Below the pieces are notes generated by a model. The model did not search any database. It had not been told where the DNA came from and worked only from the letters and a program-made list of their open reading frames with translations. DNA of 64,000 nt from Methanosarcina sp. (GTDB taxonomy: Archaea; Halobacteriota; Methanosarcinia; Methanosarcinales; Methanosarcinaceae), in NCBI GenBank assembly GCA_003164755.1, contig PLUB01000073.1, positions 1 through 64,000 of the forward strand, given 5' to 3'. Made by a program: the position numbers and the translations under genes. Positions 28,165 through 37,522 of this stretch are shown here, in pieces (position 1 is the stretch's first letter; every line of letters begins with the position of its first letter).

Positions 28165-29172
28165 TTGACCAAAAAGGTAATTATTATAGGCTTATTCATT
28201 TTGTTTGTAGTTATTATTTTTGGATTAACAACTATATTAGCAAGTGCAAGTTGGACTTCTCAGGTAACTACCACCCATAGTATCTATGTAAACATTACGC
28301 CTATAATTACTTGGAGTAATCCTGCTAACATAACGTATGGGGCAGCATTGACCAATACTCAGCTAGATGCAACTTCTTCAGTATCTGGAACTTTTGCCTA
28401 TAATCCAGTAGCAGGAACTGTATTAAGTGCAGGTACGCATATATTGACTGCTACTTTCACATCAACTTATACTACAGCAACAGATAGTGTGTTAATCAAT
28501 GTAACACAAGCTACTCCTGCAATTACTTGGAGTAACCCTATAAACATAACCTACGGAACAGCATTAAGCAGCACCCAGCTAGATGCAAATGCTTCAGTAC
28601 CTGGAACTTTTGTCTATAATCCACCATCAGGAACTGTATTAAGTGAAGGTACACATATATTGACTGCTACTTTCACACCAACTGATACTGCAAACTACAC
28701 TACAGCAACAACGAATGTTTCTATTAATGTAACACGGGTAACTCCTATAATTACTTGGAGTAATCCTGCTAACATAACGTATGGAACAGCATTGACCAGT
28801 ACTCAGCTAGATACAACTTCTTCAGTACCTGGAACTTTTGCCTATAATCCACCATCAGGAACTGTATTAAGTGAAGGTACGCATGTATTGACTGCTACTT
28901 TCACACCAACTGATACTACAGCAACAGATAGTGTGTTAATCAATGTAATACAAGCGACTCCTGCAATTACTTGGAGTAACCCTGGAAACATAACCTACGG
29001 AACAGCATTAAGCAGCACCCAACTAGATGCAAATGCTTCAGTACCTGGAACTTATATCTACACCCCACCCTCAGTACGGGTAAATATGTCTAATGATGGC
29101 GTTTTATGTGTACTTTTTGGTATATTTTTGGTACTTTTAGCAGGCATTTTGGTACTTTTAATGTACCTTTAG
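28165..29172 (+). CDS. Surface protein with four Ig-like (MBG-type) repeats
   Basis: A 335-residue protein from a TTG start (GGAG upstream). A signal or anchor segment (residues 4-27) is followed by four repeats of 70-80 residues, each starting with ITWSNPxNITYG and containing STQLDA, GTFxYNPPSGTVLS and THxLTATFTPTDT. Repeats 1 and 3 are most alike, as are 2 and 4, so a two-repeat block was duplicated. The fourth stops after IYTPPS, and the frame then runs into a hydrophobic tail (VLCVLFGIFLVLLAGILVLL) that could be a membrane anchor or an out-of-frame ending. Likely a cell-surface adhesin. Confidence 0.65.
   Translation: MTKKVIIIGLFILFVVIIFGLTTILASASWTSQVTTTHSIYVNITPIITWSNPANITYGAALTNTQLDATSSVSGTFAYNPVAGTVLSAGTHILTATFTSTYTTATDSVLINVTQATPAITWSNPINITYGTALSSTQLDANASVPGTFVYNPPSGTVLSEGTHILTATFTPTDTANYTTATTNVSINVTRVTPIITWSNPANITYGTALTSTQLDTTSSVPGTFAYNPPSGTVLSEGTHVLTATFTPTDTTATDSVLINVIQATPAITWSNPGNITYGTALSSTQLDANASVPGTYIYTPPSVRVNMSNDGVLCVLFGIFLVLLAGILVLLMYL
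28300..29070 (+). repeat. Four tandem coding repeats with AB-AB order
   Basis: Units begin near 28300, 28515, 28745 and 28960. Units 2 and 4 share long near-identical DNA (AACATAACCTACGGAACAGC onward); units 1 and 3 share AACATAACGTATGG and CAGTACTCAGCTAGAT-type variants. Confidence 0.75.
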
Positions 29173-30239: not shown

Positions 30240-30870
30240 ACACGTATTCATTTTCATTAAGGACAGTGATTTATATACTTCGGACTTATCTGCTTGCAAT
30301 AAAAAATCAAACCGGCTTGGACAATACACTTTAATGGGCATATCTCCATTTCTCTTGCCACGGTAGCTATAACTGAAACGAGCCAGTACAGTCTGAATTG
30401 TACCTTGTAGGAAGGAAAATGCTGAGTTTGGCAGATCTTCAGAATGATATAGTGGATATGTTCTCAGCAAGGTTGGTTACTCTTTCTGCCTGCAAGACAG
30501 GTATTACAGATGTTATGATAGGCAGTGCCGATGAATTCGTTGGCTTACCTGCAGGCTTTATGCTTGCTGGTATTCCATGTGTGGTAAGTAGCCTCTGGTC
30601 GGTTCCAGATATATCCACAGCCATACTGATGCAGCATTTCTACTCTCCAATCATATTGCTGAGAGTATGGATATTCCATTGGCATTGCAGGAAGCTCAGC
30701 TCTGGGTCAGAGATCTCACTTGTAATCAGGTGAGAAGATTATATAGAAAAATGCTACTTGTTCGGGTGAATGGGAAGACGAAAGCAAGAAAAGAATAGAA
30801 CAATATAGGGATAGCTACGCAAAAATGGTAGAAGAATCTCCAAAAGAGAAGCCTTTTTAGCATCCATATT
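30240..30870 (+). pseudogene. Decayed CHAT-domain (caspase-like) protein, copy 1
   Basis: CHAT domains are caspase-like cysteine proteases. Plus-strand reading gives YLHFSCHGSYN with the catalytic His, a TGA, then NEPVQSELYLVG, SARLVTLSACKTG with the catalytic Cys, GSADEFVGLPAGFMLAG, VVSSLWSVPDIST, a frameshift near 30645 and SMDIPLALQEAQLWVRDL. A TAA precedes the His segment. Both catalytic residues survive but the gene is broken three times. A shorter relative lies at 35450-35843. Confidence 0.7.
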
Positions 30871-31239: not shown

Positions 31240-32329
31240 TTTTAGTCTCTTGCCCTTAGTTCAGTAACACCTACATCCACAGCAGTAATTTCTTGTCGTT
31301 GAATTCTGAAAGGAGTTCCATTGCTATATTTTTAATTACATTTATATCCTAAGTCCAAATGGTACAGATTTCGCACGTGTGAAAGTAGAAAAGTTATTTA
31401 AACGGACTATGATAGTTACAGTCTTAAACAGATAATTATTTTTAATTAAGTTATCATGCACACTATCAGCAAGCTTACCTACATTTTTTGCAATTTTATC
31501 AGGGTCATCAACATCTTCATCAAAAATTATGTGCCTGCTTATGGACTTTACACCTTCTCTCTCGTTAACCTCTTCAGAATCAATACCATTGGCTCTTTGC
31601 TTTATTAGAATGCCCATTTTACCGAACTTTTCAGAAAGCACCTGAACTTTGAAGTTAGCAAGTTCTTCTACCTTGTTTATTCCCATCTCTTTTAGTGCTT
31701 CAATTGTTTTTTTACCAATGTAAGGAATTACAGATACTGGTAGTGGGAAAAGGAAGTCTCTGACATTTTCAGATCTAACAACTGTTAACCCATCAGATTT
31801 CTGAAACCCAGATGCTGTTTTGGCTACCAATTTATTTGGACCAATACCAACTGAACGTGTAATTTCTTCTTGTTGCTTAATTTCATCCTTAATCTTGTGT
31901 GCACAGCGAACAGCATCTTCAAAATTACTGATATTAAATGGCACAAGGTAGGCTTCATCTATGCTTACTGGTTCAAATTTTTCGGAAAAATCCTCGCAAA
32001 ATCTACATCACATTGCATGATGCTGTTTTATACAACTCCATATTCACAGGCAAAAAAGTGCAATTGGGACACAATTTATGGGCCCTACTTATCGGCATTG
32101 CGGAATGTACTCCAGATTTCCTTGCTTCGTATGAACATGTTCTTACAACGCCCCTCCGAAGTGTTGGATTAAATCGCATCACAATACACAGAGCTTTCCC
32201 TATCAAATTAGGGTGCTCTCTTACTTCCACTAATGCAAAAAAGCTATCCATGTCAACATGCAAGACTATCCGCCTTTCATGGTTATCTGTTTCAAAATTT
32301 GAGGCAGACATCAATGTAAGATGGTTCAA
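31240..32329 (-). pseudogene. Decayed second copy of dinB
   Basis: The minus strand begins MNHLTLMSASNFETDNHERR and IVLHVDMDSFFALVEV, parallel to the intact dinB next door. The frame ends at a stop near 32003 and resumes shifted as CEDFSEKFEP, VSIDEAYLVPF, running to a stop at 31342. Past that stop, shifted pieces such as NIAMELLSEFNDKKLLL show the lost little-finger domain. A nucleotide tract between polymerase motifs is also shorter than in the intact copy. One frameshift and an early stop make it non-functional as a full polymerase. Confidence 0.8.
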
Positions 32330-32529: not shown

Positions 32530-33675
32530 TCATACCCGACCATCATTTTTCTTAATATGTACTTTAATAAAATCAGTGATCAGAGTTTGTCTTTCGTCTC
32601 TTTCTCTGAGATTCGAAACTCCTACTCCTACAAGCCTGAGTTTTTGCCTTCCAATGAACTCTGAAAGTAGCTGCATAACTATCCTTTTAATAACAAAAAT
32701 ATCAGAAGTCCAGACTGAGGTAGTCTTTGAGCGTGTATATGTGGAAAAATCCTCGAAGCGCACTTTAAGAGTTACTGTTTTGAAAAGGAAGCTATGTCTT
32801 AGGAGAGCTCTATGAACGCTCTCTGCAAGCATTTCCAGGGAGCCTGCAATTTTTACAGGGTCATTTGTATCCTCCTCAAATGTTCCACTCCTGCTTATTG
32901 ACTTTACAGCTTCCTCCCATTCCTTTACTTCACTGAAATCTAGACCATAAGCCACCTGCTTCATCCAGAGACCAATTTTCCCGAACTTTTCAGAGAGGAT
33001 CTGTACATCGCAGTTTGCTAGTTCCTCCACTTTTGTAATCCCCATCAATTTAAGGATATTAGTTGTTTTTTCACCTATACCAGGTATTTTTGAGACGTCT
33101 AGCGGGTAAAGGAACTCTTGGACATCTTCTGGCCTCACAACCGTAAGGCCATTAGGTTTATTAAACTTTGAAGCGACCTTTGCAATAAGTTTGTTTGGTC
33201 CAACCCCTACCGAACATGTGATTCTTTCTTGTCTCTTGATCGCGTCCTTTAATCTAAGTGCAATAATGGCAGCCTCTTCAAAGTTTCTTATTTCGAGTCC
33301 AGGCACTAGAAAAGCTTCGTCTACGCTATATTGCTGGAACTTCTCTGCAAAACCCTTCATTATCTCCATTACGTTTGCAGAAACCTGGGCATACAGCTTC
33401 ATATTTACAGGTACAAAGGCAGCATCGGGACAGAGCTTATAAGCCTGTGAAATTGGCATTGCCGAATGTATACCATATTTTCTTGCCTCATATGAGCACG
33501 TGCTCACGACTCCTCTCCCTTTACCTCCCTTTGGATCTGAACCAACGACAACGGGCAGACCTTTAAGTTTCGGTTTTTCTCTGATCTCCACAGATGCAAA
33601 AAACGAATCCATGTCTACGTGAAGAACAATCCGCTTTCCGGTGCAGTTTGTATGATGATTGAGCGCCAACATCAA
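32530..33675 (-). CDS. dinB: DNA polymerase IV (Y-family, DinB/Dpo4-like)
   Basis: A 381-residue translesion polymerase that copies past damaged bases with low fidelity. Palm motifs are intact: IVLHVDMDSFFASVE (metal-binding Asp, near residue 17) and QQYSVDEAFLV (SxDE, near 110). The helix-hairpin-helix thumb is VSKIPGIGEKTTNILKLMGI, and the little finger runs to about residue 360 (LRLVGVGVSNLRERDE). The C-terminal tail lacks an obvious PCNA-binding box. A decayed duplicate lies downstream, and an array of inverted sites lies upstream (33800-33883), so regulated expression is possible. Confidence 0.93.
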   Translation of the reverse strand: MMLALNHHTNCTGKRIVLHVDMDSFFASVEIREKPKLKGLPVVVGSDPKGGKGRGVVSTCSYEARKYGIHSAMPISQAYKLCPDAAFVPVNMKLYAQVSANVMEIMKGFAEKFQQYSVDEAFLVPGLEIRNFEEAAIIALRLKDAIKRQERITCSVGVGPNKLIAKVASKFNKPNGLTVVRPEDVQEFLYPLDVSKIPGIGEKTTNILKLMGITKVEELANCDVQILSEKFGKIGLWMKQVAYGLDFSEVKEWEEAVKSISRSGTFEEDTNDPVKIAGSLEMLAESVHRALLRHSFLFKTVTLKVRFEDFSTYTRSKTTSVWTSDIFVIKRIVMQLLSEFIGRQKLRLVGVGVSNLRERDERQTLITDFIKVHIKKNDGRV

Positions 33676-33799
33676 TGCGATATTAGATTAAAAATATAAT
33701 AGGTATAAGCAAGCTGGGTGAAAGTATTAAATTGATAGACTGATGATTCTACAAAAAGACTTAATTAATATTTGTGTTACAAGTTTGGCCAAATTCAAA

Positions 33800-33883
33800 T
33801 TTAGCTGTAGAGCAATATTAATTAGCTGCACAGCAAAATATATTTCGCCCTACAGCTAAAATTAATTACCTGTACAGCTAAAT
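33800..33883. promoter_or_regulatory. Four-site inverted array, likely operator, between dinB and a small gene
   Basis: Sites: TTTAGCTGTAGAGC (33800), ATTAGCTGCACAGC (33821), GCCCTACAGCTAAA (33847) and CCTGTACAGCTAAAT (33869). The first two point one way and the last two the other, so the whole block is a large dyad. Each site has the core AGCTGTA or its reverse complement. Confidence 0.6.
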
Positions 33884-33981
33884 TCTAAAGTCTTATGATA
33901 CCGGTTTTACTACTTATAGTTCTTTAATATATCTTCTTTATTTATTCCTAATATTTAAAGATAATATTATAATGGGGTAAG

Positions 33982-34365
33982 ATGATGCTGGTGAATCCTA
34001 AAGATAAAATAAAAGGGTCTTTCATAGCTCAAATGCCTTCAGAATGGATTGTGAAGTTACCGTCCAATTCAGTGGGGCATACATACAGGGTGGCTATGTA
34101 TATTTGGCACTTAAAAGGGGTGAAGAAATCTAATGATTTAATAGTCACTTTGAAAGGTATAAATTCATTTTTACCTATTCCGGATTGGGCTTTTCCGAAA
34201 GCATTGGATGAATTAGAAAATTGTGGAATGATAAAAACTGTAAGACAACGGGATAAAAGTCCAACTGTAATTGTATTATGTGACACTTGTTATAAAGGAT
34301 ATCCAACTTTAAAAACACACGCCTTAACAACCAAATCGCGATCCCAAACAATAAAATTAATGTGA
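33982..34365 (+). CDS. Small possible winged-helix DNA-binding protein
   Basis: A 127-residue protein I do not recognise by name. It has the look of a small winged helix: PDWAFPKALDELENCGMIKT could be the recognition-helix part, and RDKSPTVIVLCDT the wing. There is no signal or membrane segment. The C-terminus is basic and polar. It lies divergent from dinB, across the inverted-site array, so it may bind those sites; that is inference. A viral or plasmid origin is possible given the terminase-like gene nearby. A second ATG follows the first directly (MM). Confidence 0.5.
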   Translation: MMLVNPKDKIKGSFIAQMPSEWIVKLPSNSVGHTYRVAMYIWHLKGVKKSNDLIVTLKGINSFLPIPDWAFPKALDELENCGMIKTVRQRDKSPTVIVLCDTCYKGYPTLKTHALTTKSRSQTIKLM

Positions 34366-34984: not shown

Positions 34985-35056
34985 ATGGTACGCCCTTCAA
35001 AACTATCTCCAGATATAACAAAGCTAATCGGTGAAAATGTAGCTTTAGGACTTACT

Positions 35057-35059
35057 TAG
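35057..35059 (+). other. In-frame TAG codon in the terminase small-subunit-like gene
   Basis: From the ATG at 34985 the frame reads MVRPSKLSPDITKLIGENVA, LGLT, TAG, then ALAAESAGITYQIFNSW without a break into the long open frame. TAG can be read as pyrrolysine in Methanosarcina. Confidence 0.7.
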
Positions 35060-35110
35060 GCCCTTGCTGCAGAATCAGCTGGCATAACATACCAGATATT
35101 CAATTCTTGG

Positions 35111-35419
35111 ATGACTAAAGGAAAAAATTCAACATCAGGAAGGTACTTTGAATTCTATAAACATATTCAACAACGGAATGCTGAAGGTGCTCTAAGACTG
35201 CTCGAGCGACTAAACGCGGCAGCAAAAGCTGGAGATATTCGGATCTGTATGTGGATTTTGGAGCGACGTTTCCCAGAAAATTATGGTCGGCGTTTGTACA
35301 GAAAAATGAATGTTGTTTCAGAGAATAAAAACGCGAACGTTGAGATAATCGTCAATGATGTCGATAAACTCAGAAAAGAAATTCTAGCGAAGTTAGCTCA
35401 GGATAAAGGAAAGATATGA
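35111..35419 (+). CDS. Terminase small-subunit-like protein of a provirus (gene from 34985 with in-frame TAG)
   Basis: The uninterrupted frame gives 102 residues (TTG-type or ATG start near WMTKGKN). Including the part upstream of the TAG, the whole product would be about 144 residues. The N-terminal helix-turn-helix (ALAAESAGITYQIFNSWMTKG) and the following GRYFEFYKHIQQRNAEGAL, MWILERRFPENYG segments resemble small terminase subunits and related virus proteins in Methanosarcina genomes. Such proteins recognise viral DNA for packaging. No large subunit or other virion gene is visible nearby, so it is an orphan remnant or a reused DNA-binding protein. Confidence 0.55.
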   Translation: MTKGKNSTSGRYFEFYKHIQQRNAEGALRLLERLNAAAKAGDIRICMWILERRFPENYGRRLYRKMNVVSENKNANVEIIVNDVDKLRKEILAKLAQDKGKI

Positions 35420-37216: not shown

Positions 37217-37522
37217 TTAAGAGTAGTTAGAAGAGTAGTTAGGGTTGTTAAAGTAATTAGGGTAGCTAGGATAGCTAGGGTAGTTAGAATAGCTAGGGTA
37301 GCTAGGGTAGCTAGGGTAGTTAGAATAGCTAGGGTAGTTAGGATAGCTAGGGTAATTAGGGTAGTAGGAGTATCCATAGGGATAGCCATAACTCCACCCC
37401 CATCCATATCTTTCCCAGCCGACACGTGAACTAGCCACCACTGCGGTCAACGATACCACAAAAAGGACTGCCAGCAAAATAGCTAACACCTTTTCCATTC
37501 TACCAGATAATTGTTTCAACAT
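37217..37522 (-). CDS. Secreted Tyr-Pro-Ser repeat protein
   Basis: A 101-residue exported protein. The signal segment (EKVLAILLAVLFVVSLTAVVA) is nearly the same as that of the gene at 39227. The mature part is made of YPSYPN and YPSYSN triplet repeats after a Trp/Gly/Tyr-rich start (WERYGWGWSYGYPYGYSYYP). Such Tyr-rich repeats suggest a structural or cross-linked surface polymer; the function is not known. The coding repeats make the plus strand a GGGTAGCTAGGGTAG-type array. Confidence 0.65.
   Translation of the reverse strand: MLKQLSGRMEKVLAILLAVLFVVSLTAVVASSRVGWERYGWGWSYGYPYGYSYYPNYPSYPNYPSYSNYPSYPSYPSYSNYPSYPSYPNYFNNPNYSSNYS
37235..37360 (+). repeat. G-rich tandem repeat (TAGGGTAGC type)
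   Basis: The plus strand repeats a nine-base unit close to TAGGGTAGC, with TAGGGTAGT and TAGAATAGC variants. It is the coding repeat of the gene on the other strand, and it can in principle fold into G-quadruplexes. Confidence 0.7.

Follow-up and report, generated by a model that had tools for sequence, protein, structure and literature searches.

Iteron origins, and integrative elements that carry their own DNA polymerase, are both already known. The ori of phage lambda, with its O protein, belongs to the first group. Iteron plasmids have two to seven iterons of 17-22 bp, a winged-helix Rep protein, and an AT-rich element with 13-mers (PMC4980987). We analyzed a 64-kb stretch of Methanosarcina sp. 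DNA (the window) in which repeated inverted sites lie between dinB and a divergent gene coding for a 127-aa protein. A sequence-only reading had taken these sites for an operator dedicated to dinB. Judging from sequence comparison, we consider it probable that they represent iterons, from the replication origin of a PolA-encoding integrative mobile element that left them behind. The array region and the 127-aa protein were searched in 60 relatives, and the statistics are based on the window together with the relatives' loci.

Features of the locus, in window coordinates:

32530..33675, minus strand: dinB, with IMS, IMS_HHH and IMS_C domains, outside the cassette (ORF list, domain search)
33689..33732, minus strand: dinB's own conserved promoter region, TTAATACTTTCACCC ... 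TATA-like box, common to Methanosarcina dinB genes (upstream comparison, motif search)
33753..33788, no strand: boundary between the dinB-side sequence and the mobile cassette, which has lost polA (similarity search of the region)
33778..33793, no strand: probable decayed fifth iteron (alignment; intact counterpart at G017:C451, ATTTAGCTATAAAGCC)
33800..33883, no strand: candidate iteron array, four imperfect palindromes with a period of 21/22/22 bp (window sequence, self-comparison, periodicity test)
33803..33814, no strand: iteron 1, AGCTGTAGAGCA (palindrome scan)
33824..33835, no strand: iteron 2, AGCTGCACAGCA (palindrome scan)
33846..33857, no strand: iteron 3, CGCCCTACAGCT, reverse AGCTGTAGGGCG (palindrome scan)
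33868..33879, no strand: iteron 4, ACCTGTACAGCT, 11/12 of the palindrome (palindrome scan)
33929..33973, no strand: AT-rich tract between array and gene, candidate unwinding element (89% AT over 45 bp)
33982..34365, plus strand: 127-aa winged-helix protein, candidate array-binding protein or initiator (ORF, alignment, structure model)
34985..35419, plus strand: terminase-small-subunit-like pseudogene with an in-frame TAG at 35057 (homology to an L096 gene)

The array and its relation to dinB

The four sites at 33800-33883 are present in the window sequence, and each matches the palindrome AGCTGTACAGCT (AGCTGT/ACAGCT) at 9-11 of 12 positions. AGCTGTA cores, two in each direction, had been proposed; this holds for AGCTGTA at 33803 and for TACAGCT at 33851 and 33873, but the core at 33824 (AGCTGCA) is one base away. 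The proposed large dyad is real, since the region 33798-33884 matches its own reverse complement at 78% (E 5e-10). The reported spacing of 21, 26 and 22 bases does not survive: the value of 26 is an artefact of measuring between half-sites of opposite orientation, and as the sites are palindromes starting at 33803, 33824, 33846 and 33868, the true period is 21, 22 and 22 bp. This 22-bp periodicity is significant against first-order Markov shuffles (P = 0.002), and four such sites within 90 bp form the sole cluster of this kind in the 64-kb window. Comparison with the G017 relative, which has five sites, suggests that the window array once had a fifth about 21 bp further out, now decayed. Counting the 7-mer or the degenerate palindrome across the genome gave too many chance matches to be informative; the single word AGCTGTA occurs 514 times in the genome, and isolated occurrences carry no meaning.

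The position of the array between two divergent genes agrees with an operator controlling dinB in a DNA-damage response. However, no array sites were found upstream of dinB at any of 28 other loci in the genus and family, and the array recurs elsewhere without dinB, with a virus-like DNA polymerase A gene (polA) in dinB's place, so that an SOS-like operator does not explain the sites. We rejected this candidate, to which we give next to no probability. Conservation of the sites in related genomes, a point on which the operator proposal depended, holds beside paralogues of the 127-aa protein (G017:C451) and fails at dinB.

Furthermore, dinB has a conserved element of its own, whose exact match in this genome is confined to the window dinB promoter. 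Upstream of Methanosarcina dinB genes, TTAATACTTTCACCC is followed by a conserved stretch and then by a TATA-like box, immediately ahead of the start codon and nearer to it than the array is. TTAATACTTTCACCC and the following bases (window 33718-33732) are strongly conserved upstream of dinB in L001-L027; in L006 the automatic motif search matched elsewhere, and the TTAATACTTTCACCC element is visible in the upstream comparison. The exact 13-mer TTAATACTTTCAC occurs once in this genome, at the window dinB, and one of its one-mismatch sites lies just upstream of a second dinB, on C31. From this conservation, the TTAATACTTTCACCC element, and not the array, is the candidate dinB control site or promoter. 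The genome has two other dinB genes, a typical one on C31 and a distant one on C113, and the intact window dinB is followed immediately downstream by a broken second copy (31342-32329; 57-61% identical) that is interrupted by in-frame stops.

Similarity to dinB promoters stops at about 33752-33768, and similarity to G017:C451 starts at about 33788; in the similarity search, the dinB-side match (G017:C305) ends at query position 53 and the array-side match (G017:C451) begins at query position 89. dinB thus abuts the cassette by rearrangement.

The array-linked cassette in relatives

The array is also found upstream of paralogues of the 127-aa gene on C58 (88% identical protein) and C115 (broken) of the same genome (G000), and it recurs at G017:C451, in no case beside dinB. 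C58 has three sites, G017 five, and C115 one perfect TTTAGCTGTACAGCTAAA. Matches to the spaced inverted-site pattern in the 60 genomes were mostly unrelated, the true relatives being those in G000 and G017:C451. A gene for a family A DNA polymerase (Pfam DNA_pol_A, E ~1e-13) terminates directly upstream of the array both on C58 and at G017:C451.

Intact cassettes are present in Methanosarcina sp. Chersky (G024:C55), Methanosarcina sp. ERenArc (G019:C9), euryarchaeote BL5 (G119:C28) and Methanosalsum natronophilum (G180:C8), and a PolA profile search showed that Planctomycetes, Proteobacteria, Fibrobacteres and one viral contig have this arrangement as well. At 16 loci of the first set and at 31 of the 33 of the second, polA is followed by the winged-helix gene in the same orientation. 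Pfam assigns a DNA polymerase A domain to the cassette PolA, and PHROG profiles match it both to phage DNA polymerases and to an exonuclease subunit. Upstream of polA lies a conserved gene for a protein of about 190 aa, 193 aa in Methanosalsum, which had no Pfam or PHROG match and whose model gave a best E of 0.5 against solved structures; a single-strand-binding role for it would be a guess. The RT-linked PolA of proteobacterial plasmids was considered as a relative of the cassette enzyme and rejected, as it falls in a separate clade; in L080 and L081, Paraburkholderia and Dinoroseobacter conjugative plasmids, the polymerase of that other clade comes directly after the reverse transcriptase gene.

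Between polA and the winged-helix gene the repeats are lineage-specific, with five copies of ACCTATACAACTTTGTCC in Methanosalsum, three of AACTGTAGGCATTCTTG in G024, TTGTGCCAAAATGGCATAATA in G119, and GGAACGxxxTGTCC or TTCGCTGTGTCCC in Planctomycetes. Periodicity was tested at lags of 12-40, significance in the first set being P below 0.01, and a significant best lag of 21-23 was obtained in 12 of 20 first-set regions. The second set consisted of loci found by PolA similarity, 33 of them testable; four are first-set elements again, and the loci, largely planctomycete relatives, are not all mutually independent. A significant period was found in 14 of these 33, at a lag of 20-24 in 12 cases; among 177 control windows taken from these loci there was none. 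The arrays of relatives have 2-5 copies at 21-24 bp, and about half of the bacterial cassettes in both sets showed no significant array between polA and the winged-helix gene in the lag test.

The window's AT-rich tract ranks in the top 0.08% of the window by composition and overlaps the likely promoter region of the 127-aa gene. In the array-bearing first-set cassettes that were scored, a 45-bp stretch of 76-93% AT lies between array and gene and ranks in the top 0.01-0.21% of its locus, even at 53-64% GC. Several array-less cassettes have no such tract, and in several the genes overlap. Repeated TCTnnTTA-type units (a pattern chosen after inspection) occur in the planctomycete tracts, and plain tandem AT-rich 12-14-mers in those of L131 and L143; 13-mer-like repeat units are thus seen in Planctomycetes and are not clear in the window tract.

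Several observations place the cassette in mobile elements. Tyrosine integrases adjoin the winged-helix gene in L105, L106, L111 and L113 and serine recombinases in L104, and an integrase is present at the Methanosalsum cassette locus. Three planctomycete loci (L109, L110 and L111) have a tRNA-Met gene immediately adjoining the cassette on its integrase side; a second copy of the tRNA's 3'-terminal 20-22 bp lies beyond the opposite end of the cassette, at a distance of 8.1-8.8 kb, so that these three relatives combine an integrase with direct repeats at a tRNA. Rhodopirellula rubra carries such a tRNA-Met element. No tRNA-end repeat was found within the sequence examined for the tRNA genes near L105, L106 and L108. 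Decayed PolA or winged-helix pieces lie on C58, C115, C121, C29 and C80 of the window's host genome, which indicates that an element entered it repeatedly. An intact homologue of the window's terminase-like pseudogene is found at L096:3854-4336 (phrog_4102, E 6e-21), where it follows remnants of polA and the winged-helix gene in an order matching that of the window; the pseudogene probably comes from the same element as the cassette, and is a hint that the Methanosarcina elements may derive from a phage satellite or a provirus.

The integrase or recombinase genes and the terminase-like pseudogene near some copies might also suggest that the array is a recombination or packaging site, acted on by an AlpA-like excisionase or by a terminase. 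Against this, 2-6 kb separate the array in L109-L111 from the att repeats, of which one is at the tRNA and the other at the opposite end; L113 has a distinct gene for an AlpA-like (HTH_17) protein; and the array is always positioned between polA and the winged-helix gene. We regard this explanation as highly improbable.

Other genes were observed in these regions. The Methanosalsum element codes for an ATPase (L095:4056-4934) with weak matches to Zot (Pfam) and to DnaA-like replication initiation (PHROG) and a C-terminal HTH. The window has a CHAT-domain protease fragment (30398-30733), with a longer relative in the same genome (L078:7469-8530), and proteins with short internal repeats at 28165-29172 and 37217-37522 (ITWSNPANITYGTALSSTQLD-type; YPSYPNY-type).

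The winged-helix protein and a candidate origin

The sequence-only reading had named the divergent 127-residue protein as the natural candidate to bind the sites, and this agrees with our results: the array travels with its gene, and the protein is a predicted winged helix, which probably binds the array. The conserved start of the gene is probably the ATG at 33985. Compared with the C58 paralogue, the window gene has a dS of 0.57, a dN of 0.045 and a dN/dS of 0.08, so that the protein has been under selection for most of the separate history of the two copies. Modelling with AlphaFold2 on an 18-sequence alignment gave a confident winged helix at residues ~30-100. Among solved structures, the best Foldseek match is CodY, a transcriptional repressor domain (E 4e-4), and the neighbours are mostly transcriptional winged helices; among viral models, several neighbours are named replication initiators or replication proteins. 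Single family members have weak PHROG matches to DnaD-like helicase loader and O-like initiator families. The 127-aa protein has no Pfam domain above cut-off and no LexA-type peptidase domain was found; used as a query against viral contigs, plasmids and phages it gave no match, nor did its planctomycete and Fibrobacteres winged-helix homologues against phages and plasmids, and an NCBIfam search gave none. The predicted fold supports DNA binding and leaves the choice between repressor and initiator undecided.

Partition centromeres typically contain iterons to which winged-helix adaptors bind, and the protein could be a TubR/ParR-like adaptor that binds the iterons for segregation; TubR (4asn) appears among the Foldseek matches, at rank 48. 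However, no ParA, ParM or TubZ partner gene was recognized beside the cassette, whose constant partner is PolA, and we consider a centromere quite improbable. An autoregulatory operator, through which the winged-helix protein would control its own gene and the polA operon, positively or negatively, without a role in replication, is unlikely but deserves more weight. In its favour, the gene's promoter directly follows the array, and the predicted fold is like that of transcriptional regulators (CodY, MarR/ArsR types). In archaea, the small winged-helix protein Stf76 of pSSVx binds its own promoter at two sites (PMC4027180). On the other hand, up to five copies phased at 22 bp, with an extreme AT tract containing repeated units, also in GC-rich bacteria, exceed what a simple operator needs, and the constant neighbour is a DNA polymerase.

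A replication origin would account for this arrangement as follows. The element core would consist, in order, of the ~190-aa protein, the family A DNA polymerase, the iterons, the AT-rich unwinding tract and the winged-helix gene. Winged-helix dimers would bind the palindromic iterons on one helix face (22 bp being two turns) and melt the adjoining AT-rich tract, allowing the element's own PolA and host factors to copy the excised circle; the same protein on the same DNA would also limit transcription of its own gene. In the window, polA has been lost, and rearrangement has brought dinB against the candidate origin. Since its polA part is lost, the window copy is a remnant in which the winged-helix gene is still intact, and it presumably no longer replicates.

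The locus has in-phase repeats (four copies at 21/22/22 bp), an adjacent AT-rich tract, defined by composition only, and an adjacent winged-helix gene whose product has a predicted fold, a single domain and weak links to phage initiators; the layout of array and AT tract matches the iteron-origin anatomy reviewed in PMC4980987. Several points weigh against an origin: the 127-aa protein has one winged helix and classical Rep proteins have two, its best solved-structure match is a repressor domain, about half of the bacterial cassettes are without a significant array, the AT tract overlaps a likely promoter, the cassette has no helicase or primase gene as a constant member, and the purifying selection on the window copy may date from before the loss of polA and its stranding.

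More broadly, and much more tentatively, integrative elements in archaea and several bacterial phyla may form a class that starts replication at iteron origins where one small winged-helix protein, in place of DnaA or Orc1/Cdc6, acts as initiator and opens the DNA, which each element then copies with a family A polymerase of its own. If true, one minimal origin design would work in both prokaryotic domains, as a small portable polymerase-plus-origin module common to archaea and bacteria, and each lineage would offer a defined protein-DNA pair for testing. In Methanosarcina this would mean a replication mode unlike that of its one studied plasmid replicon (proposed rolling-circle) and a possible vector backbone. 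The combination of a family A polymerase, a single-winged-helix candidate initiator and an iteron array, in archaea and bacteria, had no description in the open-licence literature searched, and the IntY island paper does not describe the cassette. The analysis also removes an archaeal SOS operator as a false lead and points out the element that is really conserved at Methanosarcina dinB.

Comparison with known systems

The cassette resembles the iteron-type (theta) origins of RK2, F, R6K and pSC101, which have two to seven repeats of ~17-22 bp, an adjoining AT-rich region and a winged-helix initiator (PMC4980987), and here too the gene of the candidate binding protein is adjacent to the array. 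It differs from them in that its protein is a single small winged helix, without a second winged helix or a helicase-recruiting domain, in its constant linkage to a family A DNA polymerase, and in its occurrence in methanogenic archaea; furthermore, no DnaA boxes were found at or near the array.

Like bacterial LexA/SOS boxes at dinB, the window array consists of repeated palindromic sites upstream of a Y-family polymerase; unlike them, it is not conserved at dinB, and the 127-aa protein is without the LexA peptidase domain. The proposed extrachromosomal replication in Methanosarcina is shared with the pC2A/pWM321 RepA replicon, but RepA is a rolling-circle nickase acting with a double-strand origin (PMC9569500), and no such Rep was recognized in the cassette.

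Like pipolins and other self-synthesizing elements (PMC7385651), the elements are integrative, with recombinases, a tRNA target and their own DNA polymerase; pipolins have a family B polymerase, whereas the cassette enzyme is of family A (Pfam DNA_pol_A) and has an iteron-like array beside it. TV-Pol elements are likewise mobile and combine a polymerase of the PolA superfamily with an integrase or resolvase (PMC2579912). TV-Pols are without a linked nuclease domain, whereas the cassette PolA has a polymerase-exonuclease region (phrog_403 match), and its gene is followed by the array and the winged-helix gene.
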